DNA of 48,915 nucleotides from Naasia sp. (lineage in GTDB: Bacteria > Actinomycetota > Actinomycetes > Actinomycetales > Microbacteriaceae): contig NZ_JAODMK010000038.1 of NCBI RefSeq assembly GCF_025465545.1, positions 1-48,915 on the forward strand. The letters run 5' to 3'. Position 1 is the stretch's first letter. Each line of letters begins with the position of its first letter. The notes below the pieces were generated by a model. That model ran no database searches. It was not told where the DNA came from and saw only the letters and a program-made list of their open reading frames with translations. This document shows, piece after piece, positions 5,555 to 30,707 of the stretch. The position numbers and the translations under genes are program-made.

Positions 5555-6300
5555 GAGTCCTCCTGCAGCTCGTCGAAGCCGTCGCGGGGGAGATCGGCGA
5601 GATCGATGCTATCCGGCTGGGCGCGGCTCAGGGCGTCCTCCACCGTCGAGCGGGCGAGCGGCCCCAGCACGCTGCCGGGCGACTCCACTCCGACGCCGGC
5701 GAGCAGCCGGGTGGCCTGCTCGATGACGGCGGTCGAGAACGTCGACACCGTCGAGATGGCCTCCGCGTAGGCGGGCCGGTCGGCCTCGGCGATGAGCACG
5801 GGCTCGCCGCCCATCTCCACCACCAGCGCCTGCCCGATGGGCTGCACCGGCGTGGGCGCCGTGACCGCGAACCACGCCTCGGCGAGGCGGGCCAGGTCGA
5901 GGCTGGTGCCGGTGAACGACATCGCCGGGTGGATGGCGAGGGGGATCACGCCGGCGGCCGTGGCCGGAGCGAGCACCGCGGTGCCGTACCGGGCCGCGGT
6001 GTGCACGACGAGCTGTCCCGCCTGCCACGCGCCGGTCGAGGCGAGTCCCTCCACGAGGGCGGCGAGCGCGTCCTCGGGCACCGCCAGCAGCACCAGCTCG
6101 CTGCGCTCGATGATCTCCGGGATGGTGAGGATCGGGACTCCCGGCAGCATCACCTCGGCGCGCTCCCGGCTGGCCGCGGAGATGGCGGAGATTCCGGTGA
6201 GCGCGTGACCTGCGCCCGCGAGCGCGGCGCCGAGCACCGGGCCGACCCGGCCGGCCCCGATCACCCCGACGCCGAGGCGGCCGGAGCGGCGGGCGCTCAT
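5551..6300 (-). CDS. Rossmann-like and DUF2520 domain protein
   Basis: 249 residues. A Rossmann dinucleotide-binding fold starts immediately (GVGVIGAGRVGPVLGAALAGAGH) and includes the segment LLAVPEDALAALVEGL. The C-terminal half (IPLAIHPAMSFTGTSLDLARL onward) is the DUF2520 type seen in 6-phosphogluconate-dehydrogenase-like proteins. The order DUF2520 gene then panC is a known neighbourhood, and some relatives have been proposed as ketopantoate reductases, but that is family knowledge and not shown here. Start and stop overlap both neighbours by 4 bp. Confidence 0.88.
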   Translation of the reverse strand: MSARRSGRLGVGVIGAGRVGPVLGAALAGAGHALTGISAISAASRERAEVMLPGVPILTIPEIIERSELVLLAVPEDALAALVEGLASTGAWQAGQLVVHTAARYGTAVLAPATAAGVIPLAIHPAMSFTGTSLDLARLAEAWFAVTAPTPVQPIGQALVVEMGGEPVLIAEADRPAYAEAISTVSTFSTAVIEQATRLLAGVGVESPGSVLGPLARSTVEDALSRAQPDSIDLADLPRDGFDELQEDS

Positions 6301-7823
6301 GCCGGCACCTGATCGGGCGAGGCATTCCAGCGGTGCGTGGTGTCGGCGGCGCCCGAGGTGACCGCGGCGGCGGAGACGTCGGCGAACAGGGAGATCGCGA
6401 GGTCCGCGTCGACGACGTCGAGCCGGGTGCTGACCGGGCCCGACACGGTGTGGGCGTGCAGGGTGGCCAGTCCGAGCGCGCGGCGGACCGGTCCCTGGAG
6501 CAGGGCGACGCTCTGCAGCCGGGCCTGGGGGACGATGACGAGTGAGCGCCAGACGCGACCGCTCCGCAGCAGCAGCGCGGAGCCGGTGAGGGTGAAGCCG
6601 GTGCGCCGCCAGGAGAACGGGCGCAGCCAGCGGGCACGTTCCGGCGCGTTGATGAAGCCGTCGGCACCGCCGGTGCCCTCGAGCCCGGCGCGGAGCACCC
6701 CTTCGGCGTCGGGTCCGCTCAGTGTGGGCAGCACGAGGGCGAGCACCCGCTCCACGTCCGCACGGTTTCCGACCGGCAGCACGGTCGTGGCCGGGGTGCC
6801 GGCTCCGTTCTGATTGGCGGACCCGCTGGCGAGGTTCATGGTGATCTGCCACCAGCCGGCCGGACGCCAGAGCAGGGGCTGCTTGACCGACACCGCGTGG
6901 ATGCGGCCCGGCGGGACGGTCTGGTTGCTCGTCGACAGCAGCCCGTAGCCGATCCGCACGCCGTTCGGCGTTCCCGCGATCGTGTAGCGCAGCGACCGGG
7001 TGAACCGGTTGAACACCAGGCTCCCCATGCCGAGCAGCGCGGGCAGGATTCCGAACAGCGCGTACCAGCTGTCGGACAGGACGATCCACGGGCCGCCGAT
7101 GGCGAGCACCAGCACGAGGATCACGGTCGTCTCACTGAGGAGGATCGAGCCGATCAGGCGCAGCGGTGGGATGCGCACCACGGACCTGACCTCCGCATCG
7201 GCGGGATCCAGTTCGGGCGCGAGGAGCTCCCCGATCCGCTGGGCGACCACTCCCCCGGCCTGATCGGCGGACGCCGCGGGTGCCGTCTGCCGCTTGGCGC
7301 CGGAGGCCAGCGTGAGGACGTCCCGGCGGAGCCCGTCGGCCTGGGCGGAGCGCAGGTAGGCGAGGCGCACGCCGGCGTCCTGGCCGGCGACCGAGACCTC
7401 GAGCCGGGCGGCGCCGATCAGCCGCGGCAGCAGCGGGCGCACCAGGTTGACGCCCTGGATGCGGTCGAGCCGTGCCTGCCGCTGGGTGCGGAAGAGGATG
7501 CCGGAGCGCACCTCGACCACCTCGTCGGTCACGCGGAACTGGTGGAACCGCCAGGAGAGGTAGAAGCCGAGGATGCCGAGCCCCACGACCCCGATCGCGA
7601 TCAGCAGCCCTGGCAGGAGGAGCCCCCGGCCGATCAGCACGTCCAGAGGGTCGTCCTCCTGCACGCCGACCGCGAACTCCACGAACCGGTCCCGGAAGTT
7701 CGCGATGAGTCCGCCGAGGATGGCGACGAGCGCGATTCCCCCGCGGAGCAGCGGAGTTGCCGGGTGCAGCCGGTGCCACTCTCCGTCCGCGAGCGGACCC
7801 CGTGAGTCCCCTGACGGGCTCAC
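6297..7823 (-). CDS. Bacterial PH domain (YdbT-like) membrane protein
   Basis: 508 residues with several transmembrane helices and three segments typical of the membrane-flanked bPH2 (DUF304) domain: around RFHQFRVTDEVVEVRSGILF, LRYTIAGTPNGVRIGYGLL and RRTGFTLTGSALLLRSGRVW. Each is followed by the usual R-I/L-Q phrase (LDRIQGVNLV, GRIHAVSVKQ, ARLQSVALLQ). The GTG at 7823 overlaps the stop of the upstream gene (GTGA), as is usual for the YdbS/YdbT pair. The molecular function of the family is not established; it is thought to act at the membrane. Confidence 0.88.
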   Translation of the reverse strand: MSPSGDSRGPLADGEWHRLHPATPLLRGGIALVAILGGLIANFRDRFVEFAVGVQEDDPLDVLIGRGLLLPGLLIAIGVVGLGILGFYLSWRFHQFRVTDEVVEVRSGILFRTQRQARLDRIQGVNLVRPLLPRLIGAARLEVSVAGQDAGVRLAYLRSAQADGLRRDVLTLASGAKRQTAPAASADQAGGVVAQRIGELLAPELDPADAEVRSVVRIPPLRLIGSILLSETTVILVLVLAIGGPWIVLSDSWYALFGILPALLGMGSLVFNRFTRSLRYTIAGTPNGVRIGYGLLSTSNQTVPPGRIHAVSVKQPLLWRPAGWWQITMNLASGSANQNGAGTPATTVLPVGNRADVERVLALVLPTLSGPDAEGVLRAGLEGTGGADGFINAPERARWLRPFSWRRTGFTLTGSALLLRSGRVWRSLVIVPQARLQSVALLQGPVRRALGLATLHAHTVSGPVSTRLDVVDADLAISLFADVSAAAVTSGAADTTHRWNASPDQVPA

Positions 7824-19832: not shown

Positions 19833-20030
19833 CTAGCTCCGCAGGACCAGCGCGATGGCCTGCATCGGGCACACGTCTACCGCCGCCTCGACGTTGTCGA
19901 GCTCCGAGTCGTCCGCCTCCGGGGTGTACTCCATCTCGTCATTGGCATTCAGAGAGAACACGTTCGGCGCCTCGATGACGCACGACCCGAAGTTCTGACA
20001 CTGCGTCCTGTCAACTTGGATCTTCACCAT
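19833..20030 (-). CDS. Ferredoxin, 3Fe-4S type
   Basis: 65 residues. Cys11 and Cys17 in CQNFGSC plus Cys54 in VCPMQA give the Cx5C...CP pattern of ferredoxins in which the second cluster Cys is replaced (Gly in this one), typical of P450-linked 3Fe-4S ferredoxins. It is cotranscribed with the reductase downstream. The start is the ATG at 20030 (MVKIQVDRTQ). Confidence 0.92.
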   Translation of the reverse strand: MVKIQVDRTQCQNFGSCVIEAPNVFSLNANDEMEYTPEADDSELDNVEAAVDVCPMQAIALVLRS

Positions 20031-20152
20031 GGCTGAACCTCCGTCGAATAGACCGCCGCAACGATCGTGCCAGATTGTCCGACCCGGGTCGCACTCCTTG
20101 CGCCTGCTGCCCCAAAACGGCTGGGCCCGCGACCCTGAACCCGGGATGAGCA

Positions 20153-20186
20153 GTTCAGCCTGGGTTCAGCGCCGCCGCAGTACCGT
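20153..20186 (+). promoter_or_regulatory. Direct-repeat operator and -10 upstream of the PepSY gene
   Basis: GTTCAGC occurs at 20153-20159 and again at 20164-20170, separated by 4 bases, an 11-base period as for OmpR/PhoP-type regulators. A -10-like TACCGT at 20181-20186 places the second repeat at the -35 region, the usual site for an activator. An inverted CTGAAC lies at about 20134. The obvious candidate binder is the response regulator at 20592. Confidence 0.55.
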
Positions 20187-20216
20187 CGCGACACCTCGAC
20201 AAGAGAAAGGAACACA

Positions 20217-20528
20217 ATGCAGAAGAAGAGATTGACACTCGGGCTCGCGGGTTGCATTCTGGCCGGCGGTCTCGCGGTCGCGGGCAGCGGAATCGCCAAC
20301 GCTGCGGGGGCGGGCGACGCCGGCCCCGCGGAGCACGACACGGCCATCAGCGGTTCGGCGCTCGAGACGGCCAGCAAGGCGGCGCTCGCGGCCACCGGCC
20401 AAGGCCGGGTCACGGACAGCGAGGTCGGCGACGAGGAGAGCTACTACGAGGTAGAGGTGACTCTCGACGACGGCAGCGAGGTCGACGTTCAGTTGGACCA
20501 GGGGTTCCAGCTCGTCGAAATCAACTGA
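20217..20528 (+). CDS. Small secreted PepSY-like protein
   Basis: 103 residues: a signal peptide (LTLGLAGCILAGGLAVAGSGIANA; the Cys could make it a lipoprotein, though no clean lipobox is present), then one PepSY-like unit (ALETASKAALAATGQGRVTDSEVGDEESYYEVEVTLDDGSEVDVQLDQGFQLVEI). The ATG follows AAAGGAACACA. The two-component pair directly downstream suggests it is a target or input of that system. Confidence 0.82.
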   Translation: MQKKRLTLGLAGCILAGGLAVAGSGIANAAGAGDAGPAEHDTAISGSALETASKAALAATGQGRVTDSEVGDEESYYEVEVTLDDGSEVDVQLDQGFQLVEIN

Positions 20529-20591
20529 CGCGGCGCCCGGGACCCTTGCCGCCTCGGCGGCCAGGGTCCTCCGCGTTTCCGGAGCAATACT

Positions 20592-21281
20592 GTGGCGCTG
20601 GAGGATGCGGTGAAGGTGCTCGTGATCGATGACGACGTGAAGCTCGTGGCGCTGGTGAAGCGGGGCCTCGAGGCGGAGGGGTTCACGGTCGATGTCGCCT
20701 ATGACGGTGCCGACGGCCTCTGGCGGGCGTCGGAGTCGAGTCACGACGTGATCGTGCTCGACATCATGATTCCCGGCCGCAACGGATTCCTCGTCTGTTC
20801 GGAGCTGCGGGCCAACGGATCCTCGACACCCATCTTGATGCTCACCGCCAAGGACGGCGACCTCGATGAGGCCGAGGCGCTGGACACCGGCGCGGACGAC
20901 TACCTCGTGAAGCCGTTCTCCTTCGCGGTTCTGGTGGCACGCCTGCGCGCTCTCGTGCGGCGGAGTGGAACGAGCACACGAGTCAGCCTCGCGATCGCCG
21001 ACTTGCGTCTGGACGTGGCGACCCGCCGGACTTGGGTGGGCGTGCGTGAGGTCGGGCTGACGGCGCGCGAATTCGCGGTCCTCAGCTACCTCGTGCAGCG
21101 AGCGGAGGAGGTCCTGTCCAAGCGGGCCATCCTCGACGGGGTATGGGACGACGATTTCGAGGGCGACCCGAACATCGTCGAGGTGTACATCGCCCGGCTG
21201 CGGCGGAAGCTGGGGGCCAGCCGCAGCAGGGCGTCGATCGAGACCATCCGCGGCGCCGGGTACCGGATGAGGGCGGACTGA
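20592..21281 (+). CDS. OmpR/PhoB-family response regulator
   Basis: 229 residues: receiver domain with acidic pocket VIDDD, phospho-acceptor Asp57 in VIVLDIMIPG, conserved Thr/Lys in LTAKDG and VKPFSF, then a winged helix with REFAVLSYLVQRAEEVLSKRAIL and VEVYIARLRRKL. The GTG at 20592 has GGAG seven bases before; a GTG at 20610 also has a good site. The kinase gene follows with 1 bp between. Confidence 0.94.
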   Translation: MALEDAVKVLVIDDDVKLVALVKRGLEAEGFTVDVAYDGADGLWRASESSHDVIVLDIMIPGRNGFLVCSELRANGSSTPILMLTAKDGDLDEAEALDTGADDYLVKPFSFAVLVARLRALVRRSGTSTRVSLAIADLRLDVATRRTWVGVREVGLTAREFAVLSYLVQRAEEVLSKRAILDGVWDDDFEGDPNIVEVYIARLRRKLGASRSRASIETIRGAGYRMRAD

Positions 21282-21282
21282 G

Positions 21283-22614
21283 GTGAGGTGGAGTGCTCGG
21301 GTCCGGATCACGGCAGTGGCCTCCGTGCTCGTCCTCATCGTGCTCGGCGTCACCGGCGCCACACTGGCGGCGACTCAGCGCGCCGTGCTCACGGACAGTG
21401 TCGACGAGGTGCTGCAGCGCAGAGCGGCGGACCTCGAGGCGAGTCTGGATGCCGGAGAGCTGGCTGACCCGATACCGGGGCAGGGCGACGAGGAGTCGTT
21501 CGCGGAGGTGGTGGCTGCGGACGGCGGGCTGATCGCCAGCACGGCGAATCGCAGCCCCGACGGCCCACCACCGCGTGCACCCTCGCCGAGTCGGGCGTTC
21601 GGCGAGATACGCAAGGGGGACCAGCACTACCGGGTGTTGACCGAAGTCCACCACGGTTTCCTGGTCCGGGCGGGCACCCCGCTCGACGACGTCGATGACA
21701 GTGCGCTCGCCCTGGTGCGCGGTCTCGGGTTCTCCATACCGGCGGCCACCGTCCTGTTGGCCCTCCTGGTGTGGCTGGTCCTCGGCCGGGTACTGCGCCC
21801 GGTCGAGTCGATTCGCAGTCAGGTCGCCGAGATCTCGGGCGGCAGCCTGGATCGTCGTGTGCCGGTACCGGGAGCCGATGACGAGATCGGCAGGCTGGCC
21901 CGGACGATGAACGAGATGCTGGACCGGCTGGAGCGCTCGGCCGAACTTCAGGAGCGCTTCGTCGCCGATGCCTCGCACGAGCTGCGGGCGCCACTCGCCC
22001 GCATCAGGACCGAAATCGATGTCAGCCTGGCGGAGGGGGTTCACCCCGACGCCCGCGCCGTCCTCCGAAGCGTCAGTGAGGACGTGGACTCACTTCAACA
22101 GCTCGTTGCGGATCTGCTTGCGCTCGCACGAAGCGACAGCCGCGTCCCCCTGACCCATCGCCTGGCGGTGGACCTCGACGACCTGGTTCTTCGGGAGGCG
22201 GAGCGGGCCCGAACTCGGAACGTCGCGAGCATCGACCTGTCCGCGGTGTCCGGTGCCCAGGTCCTGGGCGACCCGTCGCAGCTCTCCCGCGTCATCCGCA
22301 ACCTCCTCGACAACGCGATCGCCTATGGCGGAGGAAGAATAGCCGTCTCGCTCGCCGAGCAGGACGGGAGTGCCGTCCTCGCGGTCTCGGACGACGGCCC
22401 TGGTGTGCCGCCCGGATTGCAGGAGCGCATGTTCGAACGCTTCACACGTGCCGACGAGGCCCGCACGCCCTCGGCAGGGGGAGCCGGCCTCGGCCTCTCC
22501 ATCTCCCGACAGATCATCGAGGCCCATGGGGGCGTCATCTCGTTCGATCCGGGGCGGCGGCGAGGCGCACGGGTCGTCGCCCGACTCCCGGCCATTCGGG
22601 CCGGGCAGTCGTAG
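21283..22614 (+). CDS. Sensor histidine kinase of the PepSY-linked two-component system
   Basis: 443 residues. Two transmembrane helices (about 9-31 and 145-170) flank an extracytoplasmic sensor region of about 110 residues that is Pro-rich near 93-104. A HAMP domain follows (RVLRPVESIRSQVAEIS), then the H-box SHELRAPLARIR with His232, the N-box NLLDNAIAYGG, and G-boxes DDGPGVP and GGAGLGLS. The GTG start lies 1 base after the response regulator stop. Confidence 0.94.
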   Translation: MRWSARVRITAVASVLVLIVLGVTGATLAATQRAVLTDSVDEVLQRRAADLEASLDAGELADPIPGQGDEESFAEVVAADGGLIASTANRSPDGPPPRAPSPSRAFGEIRKGDQHYRVLTEVHHGFLVRAGTPLDDVDDSALALVRGLGFSIPAATVLLALLVWLVLGRVLRPVESIRSQVAEISGGSLDRRVPVPGADDEIGRLARTMNEMLDRLERSAELQERFVADASHELRAPLARIRTEIDVSLAEGVHPDARAVLRSVSEDVDSLQQLVADLLALARSDSRVPLTHRLAVDLDDLVLREAERARTRNVASIDLSAVSGAQVLGDPSQLSRVIRNLLDNAIAYGGGRIAVSLAEQDGSAVLAVSDDGPGVPPGLQERMFERFTRADEARTPSAGGAGLGLSISRQIIEAHGGVISFDPGRRRGARVVARLPAIRAGQS

Positions 22615-22615
22615 T

Positions 22616-22649
22616 GCTTCGGGCCCGGCAGACGACCCGAGCCCGAAGC
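22616..22649 (+). terminator. Hairpin after the two-component operon
   Basis: GCTTCGGGC at 22616-22624 is complementary to GCCCGAAGC at 22641-22649, giving a 9-bp perfect stem 2 bases after the kinase stop, without a T tract. It probably works with the REP-like palindrome just downstream. Confidence 0.5.
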
Positions 22650-22654
22650 GATCG

Positions 22655-22717
22655 CTGACCTGCCCAGTTCTGCCGCAACTCGACGGCGACTTGCGGCAGA
22701 AGTGGGCAGGTCACCGT
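22655..22717. repeat. REP-like palindrome, copy 2
   Basis: A 63-base element with 23-base arms (22656-22678 and 22691-22713) that pair with a single mismatch around a 12-base loop. It is the better-paired partner of 18501-18563 and again lies at the 3' end of a transcription unit. Confidence 0.8.
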
Positions 22718-22840
22718 GCAGGGGTTCGTCACCCTCGACGGTGAGGGGCTGATGGGCGAGCTGACCAGGCGGTACAACCGGGTCCCCGAGCAGGTCGGAT
22801 CACGCACCCTCACCGGGGTAGCGCCGTTCGGGTGACTGCG

Positions 22841-22897
22841 GTGGCCGGGATCGTCAACGTCGTGTCCTAGGCGGGCGGGGGCGCGGAGCCTACCGTG
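22841..22897 (+). promoter_or_regulatory. 57-bp conserved promoter element, copy A
   Basis: The left block runs from GTGGCCG to GTGTCCTAGG (22862-22871). Exactly 19 bases later comes TACCGTG (22891-22897), read as a -10. The copies at 27538-27594 (plus) and 26445-26501 (minus) have the same length and order. Weaker similarity continues downstream to AAGTGCGT at 22928-22935, at the same offset as in copy B. It lies upstream of the alpha/beta hydrolase gene. The rest of 22718-23119 holds no convincing gene; a 39-codon open frame at 22716-22835 is unassigned. Confidence 0.7.
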
Positions 22898-23119
22898 GAG
22901 TCATCGCCACAGAAGCGAATCCGAACCAAGTGCGTTCTTACCGACGCCCTCGTTCCGGTCGATGTGGCTCGTCTCCCACCCTCGCCAGCGCGCGACAGTG
23001 ACCGCCTTCCGCCGATTCGCGAGCAGCGAACGCGTCGCATCGCGGTGCCCGCCGGACTGGCACGCCTCGTGTCGCGAATTCGCGACGTCAGATCTTCCTA
23101 CCCCCGAATCGAGCAGTTC

Positions 23120-24100
23120 ATGAAGACCTCCACCCCCTCCCAAGCCCGACCGGCTCGCTGGTTCCGCGTCGCTCGCGGACTCGGCATCGGCCTCGGCGTC
23201 GTTGTCGCGGCGACCGGAGTCTCCGCGTTCGCCAACGCTTCGCTGAACGCGACCGAGAGAGACAGCATCGCGCCCTACGGCCAGAAGGTGACGATCGCGG
23301 CGGGCGACATCAACGTCTACCGGAACGGCGGCACCGGCCCCACCATGGTGCTGCTCAGCGGCTACGGCACGCCGGCACCGGCGATCGACTTCGCGCCGCT
23401 CATCCGCGAGCTCGATGCCTTCGACGTGATCGTCGTCGAGGGGTTCGGCTACGGCTACAGCGACCTCGATGTCGGCGATCGGACCGTCGAGAACATCACC
23501 AGTGAGCTGCACGAGGTGCTCGCGGATCTCCAAGTGGATGAGCCCGTGATCCTCGTCGGGCATTCCGTTGGCGGAATCTATGCGCACTACTACGCCAACG
23601 CCTACCCCGACGAGGTGTCGGCCGTCGTCGGCATCGACCCGATGGCGGCCACTGCGTCGTCGCTCGAGGTCGGCACCCCGTCCGTCCTGGAAACCGCCAC
23701 CGCGGCATCCGGCCTCTTCCGGTGGGTGACGCAGATCGCTCCCGACCTCATCCAGCCTCCGGGAACCGCCTACACCGCGGATGAGCGCCGTCGCACCGCC
23801 ACGATGACCAACTGGACCTACGGCAGCCGCTCGACCGCCGACGAGTGGAGCCGCATCGGCGCCAACTCGACGAAGGCCGCAGCGCAGCCCTTCATGGCGG
23901 ATCTGCCCGTTCTCGAGATCCTGTCCAGCGACAGCGTGAAGTACGACTCGGAGTGGCTGCCCAAGCACGAGGCCGAGCTCTCCGACGTCACGACGCATCA
24001 GCTCGAGGTGCTCGAGGGGGCCCACTACCTGCAGTGGACCCAGGCGCCGGCCCTGGGGCGGATCATCTCCGACTTCGTCGCCGCGCACGTCGGAAGCTGA
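23120..24100 (+). CDS. Membrane-anchored or secreted alpha/beta hydrolase
   Basis: 326 residues: an N-terminal hydrophobic helix (GLGIGLGVVVAATGVSAFA, about 20-38) that is either an anchor or signal, then an alpha/beta hydrolase fold with the nucleophile elbow GHSVGG (Ser149), an oxyanion region LLSGYGTP, a likely acid in EILSSDS and a C-terminal His in EGAHYLQW. The substrate is unknown. The ATG at 23120 is chosen since the anchor starts there; the frame stays open upstream to 22895, but that stretch is Arg/Pro-rich and unlike a domain. The leader from promoter copy A is over 200 bases. Confidence 0.85.
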   Translation: MKTSTPSQARPARWFRVARGLGIGLGVVVAATGVSAFANASLNATERDSIAPYGQKVTIAAGDINVYRNGGTGPTMVLLSGYGTPAPAIDFAPLIRELDAFDVIVVEGFGYGYSDLDVGDRTVENITSELHEVLADLQVDEPVILVGHSVGGIYAHYYANAYPDEVSAVVGIDPMAATASSLEVGTPSVLETATAASGLFRWVTQIAPDLIQPPGTAYTADERRRTATMTNWTYGSRSTADEWSRIGANSTKAAAQPFMADLPVLEILSSDSVKYDSEWLPKHEAELSDVTTHQLEVLEGAHYLQWTQAPALGRIISDFVAAHVGS

Positions 24101-24123
24101 CCGGGACCTCTCCTCGATTGCCC

Positions 24124-24159
24124 TGTGCGGCGTACGTCATCCGTGACGTACGCCGCACA
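24124..24159. terminator. Bidirectional terminator between convergent genes
   Basis: A perfect 16-bp stem (24124-24139 with 24144-24159) closed by a 4-base loop TCCG. It sits between the hydrolase stop at 24100 and the MFS stop at 24194, so it can serve both strands. Confidence 0.7.
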
Positions 24160-24193
24160 CTCGACTCTCCGAGGTGTCTGGTCCGGCGTCGCA

Positions 24194-25603
24194 TCACGCT
24201 GCGTGCCTGCGCCCACGGAACAGCAGATAGGCCGCGAGGCCCGCCCCGAGCAGCGCCACCGCCGCAGCAGCCACGAACGCTGCCTGGAATCCCGCGCCCA
24301 CGTCCTGGCCCTGGCCGCTCGCAATCGCGGCGATCGAGCTGAAGGCGCTGACTCCGATGGCGCCGCCGATCTGGGAGCTCGAGTTCGCCAGGCCCGCGGC
24401 GAGACCGGATCGCGCGGCAGGAACGGCGGACGCGATGACCATCGTCGTCGGCGTGAAGCTCAGGGCGACCCCGGCCGCCGCCAGCAGCAGACAGGGAAGG
24501 ACCTCCCAGCCGTAGCTGCTGCCCGTTGAGAGCCGCGCGAGCGCGAGGTGACCGATCGCCAGCAGCAGCAGGCCAACCAGCAGGGTCCGGCCGGCACCCA
24601 GTCGTCGGATCAGTCGAGGCAGCAGGAGGAGCGATACGACGAAACCGGCAACGGAGGTGGGCACCATCGCCAACCCGGAGATGCCCGGCTGGAGGAGGAG
24701 GACCTGCTGAAGGAACAAGGCCGTGAGGAAGAACGTCGACACCCGCGCCGCGCCCCCCAGCAGCCCGATGGCCACTCCGAGAGACGCCACCGGATCGCGC
24801 AGGAGGGGCAGCGGAATGATCGGATCCGCAACGATCCGCTCGATTGCGAAGAACGCCGCGGCGAGCCCGGCGGCGGCCCCGAACCAGAGGAGTGTCGGTA
24901 CTGCGTTCCAGCCGTTGTCCGCGCCGGAGAGCACCGCGGCGATGAACGCGAGCGATGAGCCGGTGATCGCCGCTGCTCCCGGCGCATCGAAGCCCACGTG
25001 CAGGCGCTCCGACGCGGGCGCCGGCAGTCGGGAGGGTGCCAGAAGGACTGCGGCAATCGCGACGGGGGCCGTCACGAAGAACACCCCCTGCCAGCCGAAT
25101 GCTGCCGTCACGAGCCCGCCGAGGGCGACGCCGAGCGCCCCGCCGGCTGCGGACGCGGCACCCCAGCCGCTCATCGCACGAGCCCGAGAGGTGCCGGGAA
25201 AGGTGTGCAGGATCAACGAGAGCGCCGCCGTGCTGAGCGCTGCCGCGCCGACGCCCTGGAGCGCTCGAGCGGCGATGAGCACTGCACCGTTCGGGGCCAG
25301 CCCGGCTGCGATCGTCGCCGCTGCGACGATGGCGGCGCCGACGAGGAACATCCGTCGTCCGCCGAAGACGTCGGCGGCGCGCCCCGCGAGGAGGAGGAGG
25401 CCGCCGAACGTCAGGAAGTAGGAGTTGACGATCCAGGCGAGTCCGGTCGGCCCCAGTCCGAGGTCGCGGCCGATGGAGGGCAGGGCGACGTTGACCACCG
25501 AAGAGTCGAGCATCACGAGGAACTGCGCCACGATCAGCAGTGCGAGCACTCCCCGTCGGTGGCGCGCTATCGGCGCGACGAGCACCGGCGTTGGTTCGAG
25601 CAT
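24194..25603 (-). CDS. MFS drug/proton antiporter, DHA2 (14-helix) type
   Basis: 469 residues, about 14 predicted helices. Motif C-like and family phrases include LLIVAQFLVMLDSSVVNVALPSIGRDL, WIVNSYFLTFGGLLLLAGRAADVFGGRRMF and LQGVGAAALSTAALSLI. This fits export of drugs or toxic metabolites. GGAG lies 7 bases before the ATG. It follows the small membrane gene by 79 bp on the same strand and may share promoter copy C. Confidence 0.92.
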   Translation of the reverse strand: MLEPTPVLVAPIARHRRGVLALLIVAQFLVMLDSSVVNVALPSIGRDLGLGPTGLAWIVNSYFLTFGGLLLLAGRAADVFGGRRMFLVGAAIVAAATIAAGLAPNGAVLIAARALQGVGAAALSTAALSLILHTFPGTSRARAMSGWGAASAAGGALGVALGGLVTAAFGWQGVFFVTAPVAIAAVLLAPSRLPAPASERLHVGFDAPGAAAITGSSLAFIAAVLSGADNGWNAVPTLLWFGAAAGLAAAFFAIERIVADPIIPLPLLRDPVASLGVAIGLLGGAARVSTFFLTALFLQQVLLLQPGISGLAMVPTSVAGFVVSLLLLPRLIRRLGAGRTLLVGLLLLAIGHLALARLSTGSSYGWEVLPCLLLAAAGVALSFTPTTMVIASAVPAARSGLAAGLANSSSQIGGAIGVSAFSSIAAIASGQGQDVGAGFQAAFVAAAAVALLGAGLAAYLLFRGRRHAA

Positions 25604-25682
25604 TTCGGTACTCCGATCGACGAGCGACAGGAACAGCGCGGCAGGCCCTCAGCCTGCGATCACTGCCGTTCACTGGTCCTGC

Positions 25683-26291
25683 TCAACTCACTATGACCCC
25701 TGTCGTGATCGCGAGCACGAGCACGGCGGCGGCCACCCAGTCGGTGGCGGCGCAGAAGGGGGGCCACCATCGCGTGTTCGCCACGAACTGGGACCGGTGC
25801 TGCCAGTAGTCCTTCACCCCGTGTGCGGCGAGTCCGGCCACGATCAGCCAGGGCGGTCCGGTGATGCCGAGGGTGGCGATGACGACGAACGCCAGGGCGA
25901 CGGCCACCTCGACGACGATCACTTTGGGGCGGCCGTCTGCCACGGCGAATCCGATGTAGATGGCGGCGATGAGGATCAGCCCGGACGCGTAGACGGTGGC
26001 TGCGGGCAGCCACCAGAAGCCGAGAGGCGAGGCAGCCTGGGCCAGGCCGGCGACCACGCCCGCGAGGACCGGCACGGACACGCCGCGCAGCCGTCCGTGC
26101 AGGCCGGCGGCAGCATTGTGAACAGTGCCGGCCGCGGTCATGGGGTGAACTGCGCGATCCGCTGCGCCCACCCTTGCAGACCGGGGCTGATCGAGATCCA
26201 GGCCGTCACCGTCGCGAAGGCGCACGACTCGGGGCCCCACCACCGCCGGCAGTCCGGCGGGCGCCGTGCTGAATACGCTCGGGTCGGTCAC
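25683..26291 (-). CDS. Small polytopic membrane protein, unknown function
   Basis: Up to 202 residues. The last 150 contain about five hydrophobic helices (for example VYASGLILIAAIYIGFAV, VAVALAFVVIATLGI, WVAAAVLVLAITTGVIV) and a polar loop HGVKDYWQHRSQFVANTRWWPPFC. The GTG at 26291 has AAGGA seven bases before, but the first 50 residues look unlike a membrane protein; an ATG at 26141 (152 residues) is the alternative. I do not recognise the family with certainty. It lies downstream of promoter copy C and upstream of the MFS gene. Confidence 0.7.
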   Translation of the reverse strand: MTDPSVFSTAPAGLPAVVGPRVVRLRDGDGLDLDQPRSARVGAADRAVHPMTAAGTVHNAAAGLHGRLRGVSVPVLAGVVAGLAQAASPLGFWWLPAATVYASGLILIAAIYIGFAVADGRPKVIVVEVAVALAFVVIATLGITGPPWLIVAGLAAHGVKDYWQHRSQFVANTRWWPPFCAATDWVAAAVLVLAITTGVIVS

Positions 26292-26444
26292 TGCTCTTTC
26301 CTTCCACGTCGAATCGCTGCGTCTCGTGTCGTCCCGACGAGGGGGTGCGGCGGTGAGGACTCCCGAGGGTCACCGAGAGGGCGGCCGGGAAGGTCCGGCG
26401 CGGGGCATGCCACGTCGTTCGGCGCAAGTCCGTGAGGATGCCTT

Positions 26445-26501
26445 CACGGTATGGCTCGCCCGGTGGCGCGCCTAGGACACGATGTTGACGATCTCGGCCA
26501 C
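26445..26501 (-). promoter_or_regulatory. 57-bp conserved promoter element, copy C
   Basis: On the minus strand it reads GTGGCCGAG, then GTGTCCTAGG (26480-26471), exactly 19 bases, then TACCGTG (26451-26445). It starts about 50 bases past the regulator stop and points at the small membrane protein and MFS genes. The leader to the GTG at 26291 is about 145 bases and holds no other gene. Confidence 0.7.
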
Positions 26502-26552
26502 GACCCCGACTGGCGGCGCCTCCGGCCGAGACCGACGCGCGGCGGGGACCGC

Positions 26553-27512
26553 TCAGGCAGGCCCGAAGTGGAAGCGATGCTTGGTCGGGGTGGTGTTCAG
26601 CCGGCGCTGGAATGCGCGGTTCATCGTCTCGGGTGTGCCGAAGCCACAGCTGCGAGCAATCTGGTCCACGGGGCTCTGGGTCGTCTCGAGCAGGCGGCAA
26701 GCCGCTTCCATCCGCACCGCCTCCACATACTCCGCGGGGGTGGTGCCCACTTCCGCCTTGAAGAGTCGGCTGAACTGCCGCTCCGACAGGTGAGCGCGAG
26801 CCGACAGGACCGGGATGGAGAGGTCGTCGACCAGGTGTTCCGGCAGCCAGTCGAGCAGGTCGCGGATGGGCTCCTCGTTCGCCGATTGGGCGGCCAGGAG
26901 TGCCGAGAACTGGCCCTGCCCCCCGGAGCGACGCAGGTACACGACGAGGCGCCGCGCGACGATCGCGGCGGCCTTCCTTCCGTGGTCGTCGGCGACCAGG
27001 GCCAGCGCCAGGTCGATTCCGGCGGTGACACCGGCCGACGTCCAGACGTTGCCGTCCTGCACGTAGATCGAGTCGGGCTCGACCGAGACCTCCGGGTACT
27101 TCGCCTCCAACTCCGCGCACTCAGCCCAATGGGTGGTCGCGCGGCGGCCGTTCAGGAGGCCCGCGGCCGCAAGGAGGAAAGCTCCCGAGCAGACCGAGGT
27201 GACCCGTCGCGACTGTCCGGCCAGGCGACGGATGTTGTCGACGAGCTTCGTGTCGCCGGCCGCCAGGTCCATGTCGCGGCCGCCCGCCACCACGAGGGTG
27301 TCGATGGGACCGACGACCTCGTCGATCGGCGTTGAGGCGAACTCCAGTCCACTGGTCGAGAGCACCGAGCCACCGTGGGTGCTGACGATCTCGGTGGCAT
27401 AGCGAGGTATCGGCAGGAATCGCGACGCGCTCGAGAACACCTCGAGCGGCCCGGTCACGTCGAGGATCTGAGCCGAGGCGAATCCGACGATCACGATCCG
27501 GGGTTCGATCAC
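26553..27512 (-). CDS. GlxA-family transcriptional regulator (DJ-1/PfpI-like plus AraC HTH)
   Basis: 319 residues. The N-terminal about 165 residues have the DJ-1/PfpI fold (IVIVGFASAQILDVTGPLEVF; nucleophile elbow SVCSGAFLLAAAGLLNG with Cys108; TTHWAECAELEAKYP; VWTSAGVTAGIDLALALV). The C-terminal about 100 residues are an AraC/XylS double HTH (LSERQFSRLFKAEVGTTPAEYVEAVRME; IARSCGFGTPETMNRAFQRRLNTTP). GTG at 27512 is chosen for AGAGGA six bases upstream. The gene is flanked by promoter copies B and C, both directed outward, which makes it the natural candidate to act on them. Confidence 0.93.
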   Translation of the reverse strand: MIEPRIVIVGFASAQILDVTGPLEVFSSASRFLPIPRYATEIVSTHGGSVLSTSGLEFASTPIDEVVGPIDTLVVAGGRDMDLAAGDTKLVDNIRRLAGQSRRVTSVCSGAFLLAAAGLLNGRRATTHWAECAELEAKYPEVSVEPDSIYVQDGNVWTSAGVTAGIDLALALVADDHGRKAAAIVARRLVVYLRRSGGQGQFSALLAAQSANEEPIRDLLDWLPEHLVDDLSIPVLSARAHLSERQFSRLFKAEVGTTPAEYVEAVRMEAACRLLETTQSPVDQIARSCGFGTPETMNRAFQRRLNTTPTKHRFHFGPA

Positions 27513-27537
27513 GGGTTTTCCTCTGGGGTCGACGTCG

Positions 27538-27594
27538 GTGGCCGAGATCGTCAACCTCGTGTCCTAGGTGGGCCAGCGTGCGGATCCTACCGTG
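27538..27594 (+). promoter_or_regulatory. 57-bp conserved promoter element, copy B
   Basis: GTGGCCGAG then GTGTCCTAGG (27559-27568), 19 bases, TACCGTG (27588-27594). Similarity to copy A continues past the -10 (GAAT and AAGTGCGT at matching offsets). It lies 26 bases upstream of the regulator start on the other strand and faces the DJ-1 operon. Confidence 0.7.
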
Positions 27595-27626
27595 GGGATG
27601 TCCCTCCGACCAGGAATCGAGCTGAA

Positions 27627-27800
27627 GTGCGTCCCCAACGCGGCACTGACTTCTGGTGGCTCTGGCTCCTGTTCGTCGCGGCCACGACGGCGGTCGTGAT
27701 CGCCTTCGCGCGCTTCAGGAGCAATGAGCGGATCGCGGAAGCGATGGCTGCCGGGGCCGCGCGCCGACGAAGCGAACCAGGAACACCAGCGCCCGACTGA
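27627..27800 (+). CDS. Possible small single-pass membrane protein
   Basis: 57 codons from GTG: a short basic N-terminus, one strongly hydrophobic helix (FWWLWLLFVAATTAVVIAFA), then a charged tail (RFRSNERIAEAMAAGAARRRSE). The layout resembles a real small membrane protein and lies just after promoter B, but the ribosome site is weak (AGGA 11 bases away). It would be the first gene of the DJ-1 operon. From its stop to 27935 I see only leader sequence. Confidence 0.5.
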   Translation: MRPQRGTDFWWLWLLFVAATTAVVIAFARFRSNERIAEAMAAGAARRRSEPGTPAPD

Positions 27801-27935
27801 GCCGCAGAGAACCGGCGGGCTTGCGGACGTGCCACGTGCACATCTGCAGGTCCTTGCTGCGCCTGAAAGCGACCGTCCCCTCGCTCGTATCCCCGAGACC
27901 CGTCCCTGCCACACCACTGAACCTGGAGTACTCCC

Positions 27936-29213
27936 ATGTCACCTGCCGTCCGAAACATCGGCCGAATCGCCCTCTCGACCTCGATCACCCTCGTTGCCTT
28001 CGCCGGGGCTGCCGTGGCCGGACTGGCTCAGCCCGGCCCCCCGCCCACGTCGCCGGGGGAGGCCGCCCCGGGAGGAGAGCGCTTCACCGGGTCCACCGCA
28101 GAGGGAAAGATCGTCGTCGCGGTGGTGCTCGGCAAGTCCGGCTCCGAGGCGGCCGACGTGCTCGCCCCGTTCGACGTGCTCGCCACCTCTCCCCGATTCG
28201 CCGTCTATACGATCGCCGACTCACAGGCCGCGGCGCCGCTCGATGGCGGGCTCTGGCTCACTCCCGACTTCACCTTCGCCGACGCGGCGTCGGGCGCGGC
28301 GCCGAGGCCGGACCTCATCGTCGTGCCGGCCGTGAACCTGCCCGCCGAAACAGCGGAGGAGGGGGCACGCAGCTTCATCGCCGGCCAGTACGCCGACGGC
28401 GTCCATGTGCTCGGAATCTGCGCCGGGTCCCGCCTGCTCGCCGCAGCCGGCATCCTCGACGGGCTCACCGCCACGTCACATTGGTCGCGCATCTCCGAAC
28501 TCGAAGAGTCCAACCCGGCTGTCTCATGGGTCCGCGGGGAGCGGTATGTGCAGGACGGCCGGGTCACGACCACCGGCGGTGTGACCTCGAGCATTCCCGG
28601 GACGCTCAAGGTGATGGCCGACCTGGCCGGCGCTGCCGAGGCCGCACGGGTCGGGAAGCTCATCGACTACCCCGGCTGGACGCCCGACTCCCCGGCCCGC
28701 ATGCCCAAGAAGACCTTCGGCCTCGACGACGTTCCCGTGCTGATCAACGCGGCCTTCCCCTGGGCCCGCCCGACCTACGACATCCGACTGGCGGACGGCG
28801 TGGACGAGATCGATGCCGCGGCACTCTTCGAGATGTACAGCTACTCACTGGCCGGCACCACGCGCGCCGTATCGGCCTCGGGGTCGGTCAGGACCCGCCA
28901 CGGCCTGAACCTCCGCACCGAAGTGCTGGGCGAGTCGACCGGCGGCGAGACCCTGCAGGCCGGCGGCTTCACGAGCCGCAGCGGGAGAGGAGGCTTCGAC
29001 GCCGCCTTCGAGCAGCTGGGACGCACCGCCGGCTCCTCCGTTGTGGAATCGGTCAGCAAGATGCTCGAGTACCCGATCGACCGGGTGAACCGCGACCAGC
29101 CTTTCGCGTGGCAGCAGTGGCGCTCGACAGCGCTCCTCGCCGCCGCGGCACTCCTCGCCATCGCTGCGGGCTGCCTCCCCCTCGTTGCGCGCCGGATCCT
29201 GCGCCGCAGATGA
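27936..29213 (+). CDS. Membrane-anchored DJ-1/PfpI family protein
   Basis: 425 residues. An N-terminal hydrophobic segment (IALSTSITLVAFAGAAVAGLA) and a C-terminal helix (ALLAAAALLAIAAGCLPLVA, then RRILRRR) bracket a DJ-1/PfpI domain starting at KIVVAVVLGKSGSEAADVLAPFDVL. The elbow Cys162 is in GICAGSRLLAAAGILDG, followed by TSHWSRISELEESNP and VTTTGGVTSSIPGTLKV, which parallels the regulator's own DJ-1 domain. By charge distribution the domain should face outside. A second partial unit (VPVLINAAFPWARPTYDIRLADG onward) is less clear. GGAG is 7 bases before the ATG. Confidence 0.85.
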   Translation: MSPAVRNIGRIALSTSITLVAFAGAAVAGLAQPGPPPTSPGEAAPGGERFTGSTAEGKIVVAVVLGKSGSEAADVLAPFDVLATSPRFAVYTIADSQAAAPLDGGLWLTPDFTFADAASGAAPRPDLIVVPAVNLPAETAEEGARSFIAGQYADGVHVLGICAGSRLLAAAGILDGLTATSHWSRISELEESNPAVSWVRGERYVQDGRVTTTGGVTSSIPGTLKVMADLAGAAEAARVGKLIDYPGWTPDSPARMPKKTFGLDDVPVLINAAFPWARPTYDIRLADGVDEIDAAALFEMYSYSLAGTTRAVSASGSVRTRHGLNLRTEVLGESTGGETLQAGGFTSRSGRGGFDAAFEQLGRTAGSSVVESVSKMLEYPIDRVNRDQPFAWQQWRSTALLAAAALLAIAAGCLPLVARRILRRR

Positions 29214-29263
29214 GCCGCGCGCCCTTCCCCGAAGTTCGGCCCACGACACGAAGGAGGCCCGCC

Positions 29264-29710
29264 GTGGCCAACCGACCGAAGACCGCGACACGGAATGTCG
29301 CTGCCTATCGTGCCCGCCTCTTCCGCGGCGTTCTCGAGTATCTCGGGATGGTCGCGGCGATGCTCGCGGGGATGGTCGTCCTCGGCCTGCTCCGAGACGT
29401 GGTCGCACCGGGTCCCGCCCTGCGCGCCGACCTCGAGACGATGATCATGGCCACCGAGATGGTGATCGGCATGGCGGCGTGGATGATCGCGCGACGCCAC
29501 GCCTGGCGCGGCATCGCCGTCATGTCCGCCGCCATGTACCTCCCGTTCCTCGTCCTCGCCCCGCTGCTCTGGGTCGGCGCGATCTCCGCAGAAGCCCTCG
29601 GGATCGGTGGTCATCTGCTGATGCTCGTCGCGATGGCCCTCGCGATGCCGCTGACGCACCGAACGGGCCACGGGGCACAGCGGGCGCAGCACGAGGGAAC
29701 AGCTCGCTGA
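29264..29710 (+). CDS. Four-helix membrane protein, partner of the DJ-1 protein
   Basis: 148 residues with four hydrophobic helices (YLGMVAAMLAGMVVLGLL; MIMATEMVIGMAAWMIA; VMSAAMYLPFLVLAPLLWVGAI; IGGHLLMLVAMALAMPL). It is Met-rich: many Met residues line the helices. Homologues are sometimes labelled FliP-like in annotations, but there is no flagellar gene here, so I do not use that name. The GTG at 29264 has AAGGAGG six bases before. An ATG at 29210 overlapping the DJ-1 stop is a weaker option. Cotranscribed with the DJ-1 gene. Confidence 0.75.
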   Translation: MANRPKTATRNVAAYRARLFRGVLEYLGMVAAMLAGMVVLGLLRDVVAPGPALRADLETMIMATEMVIGMAAWMIARRHAWRGIAVMSAAMYLPFLVLAPLLWVGAISAEALGIGGHLLMLVAMALAMPLTHRTGHGAQRAQHEGTAR

Positions 29711-29750
29711 GCCGACCCTCCTGTGGGTGGCTGCGGGTACCGTGCCTCTC

Positions 29751-30707
29751 GTGGCCGAGCCGATCCAGTCCTGGTGGGCACGCCGCCAGTTCTCCCGCGG
29801 GGAGCGCGTGCCCTACGCGGTGGGCACCTACCGGGAGGCATGGGCAGCGTTCCCCGTCCTCATCCGCCAGTACCACCCGGAGCTCAACGCCGGGATCACG
29901 CTGACGCAGATCCCCCCGGCCGCCGAGGTGCTGCTGCAATGGCAGTGCGACGCGGGGCACATCTTCGTGGCCACCCCCGAGGAGCAGCGGATGCGGCCCG
30001 GCCGCGAGCGGCGGAAGTCGTCGTGGTGTCCGAGTTGCTCGGCGATGGCGCGGCCTCGGCCGGTCCGGATGCCCGAGCCGGTGCCGGAGCCGGCACCCGG
30101 GCAGGAGTCGGCACCTGAACCGGAGGCGGAGGCGCCGTTCGCCCTTCTCGCCTCGGCCGAGTGGCCACCGGCCGCGTCCTCGCCTGCTGCCCCTCGCGCC
30201 GCGCCTGCCCGGGTTCGCCCCGCGGCGCGACGTCGCGCTCCCCGGCTCTGCCTGCGCACGCCCGAGCTGCCCACCGGGGAACCGTTCGTCAGCGACTGCG
30301 CTCCCAGGCCCGCGTCGGCGGCCGAGGGGCAGCTTCGGGCCGAGCTGGCGGGTCGCCTGGAGTGGACGCCGGGGTTCAACGCGGTCCGGCTCGGGCGGCC
30401 CTTCTTCGAGCACCTGGAGGCCTGGCCCGACATCCTGCTCCCTGAGCTGCGCATCGCCGTCGAGTACGACACGGTGGGCCGGCACGGCCTCGAGCACGTC
30501 GGCCACCGCGAGGAGGCGGACCGGCGCAAGGACCGCGCGGTGCGCGCCGCCGGCTGGGAGGTCGTCCGGATCCGGACCGGGCGCCTGGAGAAGCTGGGGC
30601 CGCACGATGTCCAGCTGAGTGGGCTGACCCGCGCGGCGTACCCCGCGATCCTCGACGAGTTCCGGGCCATCCGCGGGCCGTTCCTCGTCGACGCCTATCT
30701 CCGCTGA
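29751..30707 (+). CDS. Putative PD-(D/E)XK / DUF559-like nuclease with zinc-ribbon
   Basis: 318 residues. The N-terminal part (WWARRQFSRGERVPYAVGTY; QYHPELNAGITLTQIPP) has a CxxC-type zinc-ribbon fragment (WQCDAGHIFVATPEE with WCPSCSAMARP). A Pro/Glu/Ala-rich linker (about 100-165) follows. The C-terminal domain has an endonuclease-like pattern: ILLPELRIAVEYD, HREEADRRKDRAVRAAGWEVVRIRTG, as in DUF559/Vsr-like restriction folds. The target is unknown. A GTG at 29727 is an alternative start. It is convergent with the GIY-YIG gene, 31 bp apart. Confidence 0.65.
   Translation: MAEPIQSWWARRQFSRGERVPYAVGTYREAWAAFPVLIRQYHPELNAGITLTQIPPAAEVLLQWQCDAGHIFVATPEEQRMRPGRERRKSSWCPSCSAMARPRPVRMPEPVPEPAPGQESAPEPEAEAPFALLASAEWPPAASSPAAPRAAPARVRPAARRRAPRLCLRTPELPTGEPFVSDCAPRPASAAEGQLRAELAGRLEWTPGFNAVRLGRPFFEHLEAWPDILLPELRIAVEYDTVGRHGLEHVGHREEADRRKDRAVRAAGWEVVRIRTGRLEKLGPHDVQLSGLTRAAYPAILDEFRAIRGPFLVDAYLR

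Follow-up and report, generated by a model that had tools for sequence, protein, structure and literature searches.

The 48,915-nucleotide stretch of a Naasia sp. genome analysed here (contig NZ_JAODMK010000038.1, hereafter the window) contains three copies of a 57-bp element around a gene for a GlxA-type transcriptional regulator, and the same element is found immediately upstream of this regulator's close orthologues, in 11 of 12 assessable cases from three families, adjoining the regulator gene and preceding its putative targets. We consider it probable, judging by sequence, that each copy combines an AraC-type operator with a promoter of this DJ-1/PfpI-AraC regulator, and that the regulator governs a local regulon by class II activation. 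Specifically, the regulator, presumably as a dimer, would bind two direct-repeat half-sites, TGKCC and YGTCC, placed 21 bp, or about two helical turns, apart. The downstream half-site would occupy the place of the -35 element, with a [T/C]AnnnT -10 element 20–21 bp behind the conserved block, in the geometry of AraC-type class II promoters. Copy A would thus switch on an alpha/beta hydrolase gene, copy B the genes of a small membrane protein and an MFS transporter, and copy C a short membrane open reading frame (ORF) together with the gene of a DJ-1-domain membrane protein. Autoregulation through copy C is likely, because the start codon of the regulator lies about 26 bp from the block, so that its transcript would have to start in or behind the element. 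Binding by the regulator, activation in place of repression and the extents of the operons are what we infer from this arrangement, the activator role following from the geometry.

The element and the adjacent regulator

Copy A is located at 22841–22897 on the forward strand, copy B at 26445–26501 on the reverse strand and copy C at 27538–27594 on the forward strand. The three are collinear, each 57 bp long and free of gaps; 29 of the first 31 bases are the same in all of them, with differences only at positions 8 and 19, the following 19-base spacer is identical at 8 of 19 positions, and each copy ends in TACCGTG. A first-pass annotation of this DNA had described the same gap-free copies with the same identity and the same fixed distance to TACCGTG, and its positions and counts were reproduced. 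Its further remark that TCGT recurs with a 10-base period does not hold, as TCGT starts at positions 11 and 20, a period of 9. In copy A the half-sites TGGCC (22842–22846) and TGTCC (22863–22867) are followed by the spacer and the putative -10 hexamer TACCGT at 22891–22896; the corresponding hexamers occupy 26446–26451 in copy B and 27588–27593 in copy C, which lies within the 5' region of the regulator gene. At up to three mismatches the 31-mer has three matches in the window; 100 dinucleotide shuffles gave no match. A search of the genome (2,756,659 bases in 53 contigs) for the 21-base core returned only copies A, B and C without mismatch and three other places with 2–3 mismatches. A mobile repeat was considered and rejected, since the genome has three copies and one locus holds them all.

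The regulator gene, located between copies B and C (26553–27512, reverse strand, with a probable GTG start at 27510–27512), encodes a protein of the GATase1-like AraC-family regulator (GATR) architecture, with an N-terminal DJ-1/PfpI domain and a C-terminal AraC-type helix-turn-helix (Pfam DJ-1_PfpI, 5e-22; HTH_18, 2.7e-24). Among solved DNA-binding domains the closest is AdpA's (3w6v, E 2.3e-18). For the DJ-1 domain the best solved relatives are isonitrile hydratases, which would make isonitriles and reactive carbonyls speculative candidates for the inducer. The nearest NCBIfam model is FtrA (NF006902), with a score of 254.7 bits that stays under the curated cut-off of 425. The first-pass annotation had copies B and C bracketing the gene: copy C does stand at its 5' end, whereas copy B lies just past its 3' end and points away from it.

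The anatomy of the element was derived from 16 aligned copies, of which the window supplied three, other Microbacteriaceae-type loci a further three, Geodermatophilaceae nine and a genome of another family of the order (G741) one. The block consensus is TGKCCGRRWTCGTCAA-N5-YGTCCTRG, with the half-sites TGKCC and YGTCC spaced 21 bp; the block holds 1.56 bits of information per column, the upstream flank 0.29 and the 20-base spacer 0.47. [T/C]AnnnT follows the block after 20–21 bp in all 16 copies (offset 49 in 13, offset 50 in three); elsewhere between offsets 30 and 59 no position has it in more than one of the 16. A -10 at offset 49–54 puts a 17-bp-spaced -35 at offsets 26–31, that is, on the second half-site, where the best hexamer shares three of six letters with TTGACA in 14 copies and four of six in two, which suggests a promoter that needs help. 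By its geometry the element thus has the features of activator-dependent primary-sigma promoters of class II: a TAnnnT-like -10 at constant distance, a weak -35 and an operator overlapping it. Near the likely transcription start, T at offset 62 and C/A at offsets 68/70, counted from the block start, are also weakly conserved in the 16 copies.

Relatives near and distant, and known systems

A GlxA-type regulator is matched at E ≤ 1e-70 in 124 of 394 genomes of the class, and the close orthologues form a separate group among such proteins: a family scan of 398 genomes gives four matches with E values of 2e-169 or lower, followed by one of 4.5e-92. They come from two metagenome-assembled genomes (MAGs), BP_150 and a Cryobacterium MAG, and from Lacisediminihabitans profunda (Microbacteriaceae); seven more belong to Blastococcus/Geodermatophilus genomes of the Geodermatophilaceae, and a further orthologue, with 67% identity, was located via the element in G741. 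A protein with 30% identity over part of its length (L044) was excluded from the group, and locus L048 was not counted as assessable, since the contig edge is reached there. The 11 positive loci are the window, L033/L034, L035, L036, L037–L042 and L096. Co-occurrence in related genomes had been a check proposed by the first-pass annotation, and the element indeed accompanies close orthologues across families. Together with the -10 motif of all 16 copies, this supports the earlier proposal of a transcription-factor site with a -10 at an exact distance, serving a small regulon of the GlxA-type regulator.

Outside these loci the element is rare. Eight loci or genomes searched at up to three mismatches gave 10 matches, nine of them with 0–1 mismatch and all nine at the regulator locus; the tenth, with three mismatches, lies elsewhere, and a reversed control pattern matched once. 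No match at up to three mismatches was found in genome G299. A scan of 396 genomes of the order at up to two mismatches returned eight foreign matches, of which only one had fewer than two mismatches: the copy in G741, separated by about 33 bp from the point where the ORF of the 67% orthologue begins. The corresponding scan of the class (394 genomes) returned 10 foreign matches, every one with two mismatches. No homologue of the window's regulator was found within roughly 3 kb around each of the two-mismatch matches of both scans, and around a two-mismatch match in G420 the surrounding 9.9 kb contain no homologue of the tested window proteins.

The same geometry recurs in more distant relatives of the regulator with 48–53% identity (L108 and L112–L140, that is, 29 class-scan loci, the window's own excluded, and one plasmid record). 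Here it stands upstream of the regulator's own start and points toward it, at 56–75 nt in 29 of 30 loci; in L119 the first pattern match is at 150 nt, and the module is also visible nearer in its sequence. The direction of the module relative to the regulator differs between these relatives and the window's clade. The window's own pattern, at up to seven mismatches, matched several of these relatives, with 77–87 nt between it and the protein match; a second pattern, drawn up in the light of these first matches, was found 17 times against 0.34 expected; and a shorter pattern, fitted on all 30 loci, matches 30 of 30 at spacer 18 and none at other spacers from 12 to 24, with 0.25 expected. Applied unchanged to 20 upstream stretches fetched afterwards, the fitted pattern matches 13 at spacer 18, and with L111, whose upstream stretch had been inspected earlier and which also matches, the count is 14 of 21, as against at most two at other spacers in either orientation. 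Less sure among the 14 are L143, with two matches, and L156, with its match at 143 nt; a similar variant is visible by eye in most of the seven misses. In 27 of the 30 relatives A..[AG]T follows the module close to the start codon, so their transcripts may be nearly leaderless. Many of the sites in L112–L140 end in GCCA, the inverted partner of the leading TGGC, besides the direct repeat.

In 26 homologues from the Microbacteriaceae with 38–48% identity (L049–L074), the fitted pattern is found in no case toward the gene and once away from it, and there is no match to the window's element at up to four mismatches. Among 55 more distant homologues, TGKCC pairs occur four times at 21 bp and at most once at each other spacing from 5 to 45, and a count of four, at whatever spacing, arises in one of 200 shuffles; these four pairs are not independent cases, as they come from paralogues of about 40% identity, maybe of one lineage. 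In homologues of about 40% identity (L057, L064, L066 and L070), TGTCC-N16-TGKCC lies upstream of the regulator homologue and points away from the gene, perhaps as another operator of the same geometry.

The operator was not found in the PMC literature, a scope outside which most subscription papers lie, and little was found there on the sites of GlxA-type (DJ-1/PfpI-AraC) regulators. The locus would represent a new regulon with a known type of circuit, in which a GlxA-type regulator has operator-promoters of its own. CdhR, like GbdR, SouR and ArgR, is a GATR of Pseudomonas aeruginosa; its 34-bp footprint covers direct repeats of GGTCGC separated by 15 bp (PMC5806209). It shares with the window's regulator a DJ-1/GATase1-like domain joined to an AraC helix-turn-helix, a gene divergent from the target operon and, on the direct-repeat reading of the block, a half-site spacing of 6+15 = 21 bp in a site of about 30 bp. 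They differ in the half-sites (TGKCCG/YGTCCT in the window) and in placement, as the window's site abuts the -35 in class II geometry whereas CdhR is described as class I, and the window's regulator comes from Actinomycetes. Another AraC-family protein of P. aeruginosa, SphR, recognises the half-site TGNCCSNNRNNSNCC in direct repeats 6–8 bp apart (PMC3900636). Of the nine positions of that consensus, half-site 1 matches eight in 14 of the 16 copies and seven in the other two; the targets of the two regulators differ. AraC at araI1–I2 likewise binds a direct repeat with its downstream half-site at the -35, in sequences unrelated to those of the element. Neither SphR nor AraC is known to have a DJ-1 domain.

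Direct repeats are bound by symmetric AraC-family dimers (PMC9723621). The AdpA box of Streptomyces, TGGCSNGWWY (PMC8653842), matches exactly at the start of half-site 1 in four of 16 copies. AdpA is described as a global regulator whose site is degenerate, whereas the window's element is a long specific block with three sites in one genome; with the block taken as the site, no AdpA-like global regulon is seen, as the genome holds three perfect core sites. The site of SAV742 of Streptomyces avermitilis, GCCGA-n10/n12-TCGGC (PMC5107987), was rejected as a match, being an inverted repeat unlike the element.

It is tempting to hypothesize, with about even chances of being right, that an entire DJ-1/AraC subfamily of Actinomycetes has kept a common operator-promoter code, of which the element is one version. 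In the relatives of about 50% identity the operator-promoter would sit on the regulator's own, apparently leaderless promoter and form a self-regulating unit, while in the window's clade the module would have been turned round and copied, converting that unit into a local, envelope-associated regulon of three promoters. If this is true, the sequence could reveal the sites and target sets of many GlxA-type regulators that are so far uncharacterised. Such regulators are common in Actinomycetes, and the site, spacing, -10 and target set described here predict where to look in other genomes. The deeper surprise lies in the reach of the module's conservation and in its orientation towards the regulator, which is not the same in the window's clade and in the relatives of about 50% identity.

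Weighing the alternatives

Several observations weigh against an AraC-type operator-promoter of the GlxA-type regulator. At L043 the regulator has no upstream copy; the regulator match there is fragmented over different frames and looks broken. In G741 the gene behind the element belongs to the beta-lactamase family (Pfam PF00144) and not to the hydrolases, so the targets are not constant. A family scan with the shorter 21-base core at two mismatches gave matches in 24 of 299 genomes, mostly by chance: TACCGTG stands in the flanks at the right distance only in the window's genome, G170 and G191, and the remaining matches look like chance, mostly within coding sequence. The direct-repeat reading of the block is supported more weakly than the rest, by the homologues and by the CdhR geometry. 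When only the 16 copies are scored, the 21-bp repeat is suggestive but falls short of significance once corrected (0.0375; 0.178 across spacings 19–23), and the same scoring gave higher scores to an 11-bp direct repeat and to two inverted arrangements. A phased YGTC triple at 0/10/21, considered as a set of groove contacts, reached 0.083 by column permutation and is not claimed. At L043 (Blastococcus haudaquaticus, regulator at 6001–6936), the nearby small membrane-protein gene keeps a copy of the element with one mismatch.

The overlap of the block with the -35 place (offsets 26–31 at 17-bp spacing) would also suit a repressor, which would occlude the -35 at the three promoters until an inducer releases it, and in the relatives of about 50% identity the regulator's own promoter carries the site, a position where autorepression is common. 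We hold this to be unlikely, though worth serious attention: no hexamer near the -35 place exceeds four of six letters of TTGACA in the 16 copies, and the constant distance of the second half-site beside the -35 is in keeping with class II activation. Elements in front of a gene may also be bound by some other factor that controls it, so that the block might serve a different regulator or an alternative sigma factor, with the GlxA-type gene a mere neighbour or target. This is improbable, given that there are only one to three sites per genome, all at the regulator locus, that the site accompanies the regulator across families and the same geometry precedes its homologues of about 50% identity, and that the small membrane-protein gene has a copy wherever it is present at the locus.

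The likeness of the copies might be owed to recent duplication alone, their letters being of no consequence, and the short-ORF remnant behind copy A does indicate that copies A and C descend from one duplicated unit. In the 16 copies from several families, however, spacer and flanks have diverged and the block has not, which leaves this explanation very little room. Least credible is that the block encodes a short leader peptide (GTG GCC GAG ATC GTC AAC nTC GTG TCC TAG) or forms an RNA element. In the window copies this frame stays open up to a final TAG, but other families have TGG at the stop and sometimes CTG at the start, and the changes also fall outside the third codon positions, several of which are invariant; moreover, the block sits upstream of the -10, and no Rfam family reaches its gathering score in 20000–30000. 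The codon pattern, the TGG at the stop and the Rfam negative led us to reject both.

Putative targets and neighbouring genes

Under the favoured activation by the GlxA-type regulator, copy A would serve the alpha/beta hydrolase gene downstream of it (23120–24100, forward strand), assigned by Pfam, whose product has an N-terminal hydrophobic segment. Between copy A and this gene lies the remnant resembling the short membrane ORF (22962–23039, forward strand; tblastn E 1e-5 and 3e-6). On the other side of copy A, at 20217–22614, are genes of a PepSY-domain protein, a response regulator and a histidine kinase, with no sign of regulon membership. TACCGT does precede the PepSY gene, as the first-pass annotation had pointed out (20181–20186), but no left block accompanies it, and the hexamer is no commoner than base composition by itself would make it, the window having six occurrences where about 13 are expected; the PepSY gene was therefore rejected as a fourth member.

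Copy B stands upstream of the small membrane-protein gene (25683–26141, reverse strand), whose start is unsettled, an upstream GTG at 26291 being possible. The MFS gene (24194–25603, Pfam) follows 79 bp behind it on the same strand and would be co-transcribed with it from copy B. Homologues of the small membrane protein are present at seven of seven Geodermatophilaceae loci, with 61–66% identity by tblastn and 57–62% over the alignment. As with copy B, its gene is preceded by its own element copy in L040, L041 and L043, and in L037–L039 and L042 it shares one strand with an alpha/beta hydrolase gene behind a single copy, the hydrolase being assigned by Pfam in L039 and L042. The protein has no Pfam or NCBIfam match, and its structural model, of moderate confidence (mean predicted local distance difference test score 70.4), finds no PDB fold match with E ≤ 0.001. 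An uncharacterised and well conserved membrane protein is hereby linked with a hydrolase and a regulator, so that its function becomes testable.

Copy C is upstream of the short membrane ORF (27627–27800, forward strand, 57 aa), which has no Pfam match, and of the DJ-1/PfpI-domain protein gene behind it (27936–29213, forward strand), assigned by Pfam, whose product has hydrophobic ends. Homologues of the short ORF follow the element in two other loci. In L036 the element stands upstream of the short ORF and a hydrolase gene (a 71% homologue), and in L035 upstream of the short ORF, a hydrolase fragment and a DJ-1-domain membrane protein, a 56% homologue of that in the window.

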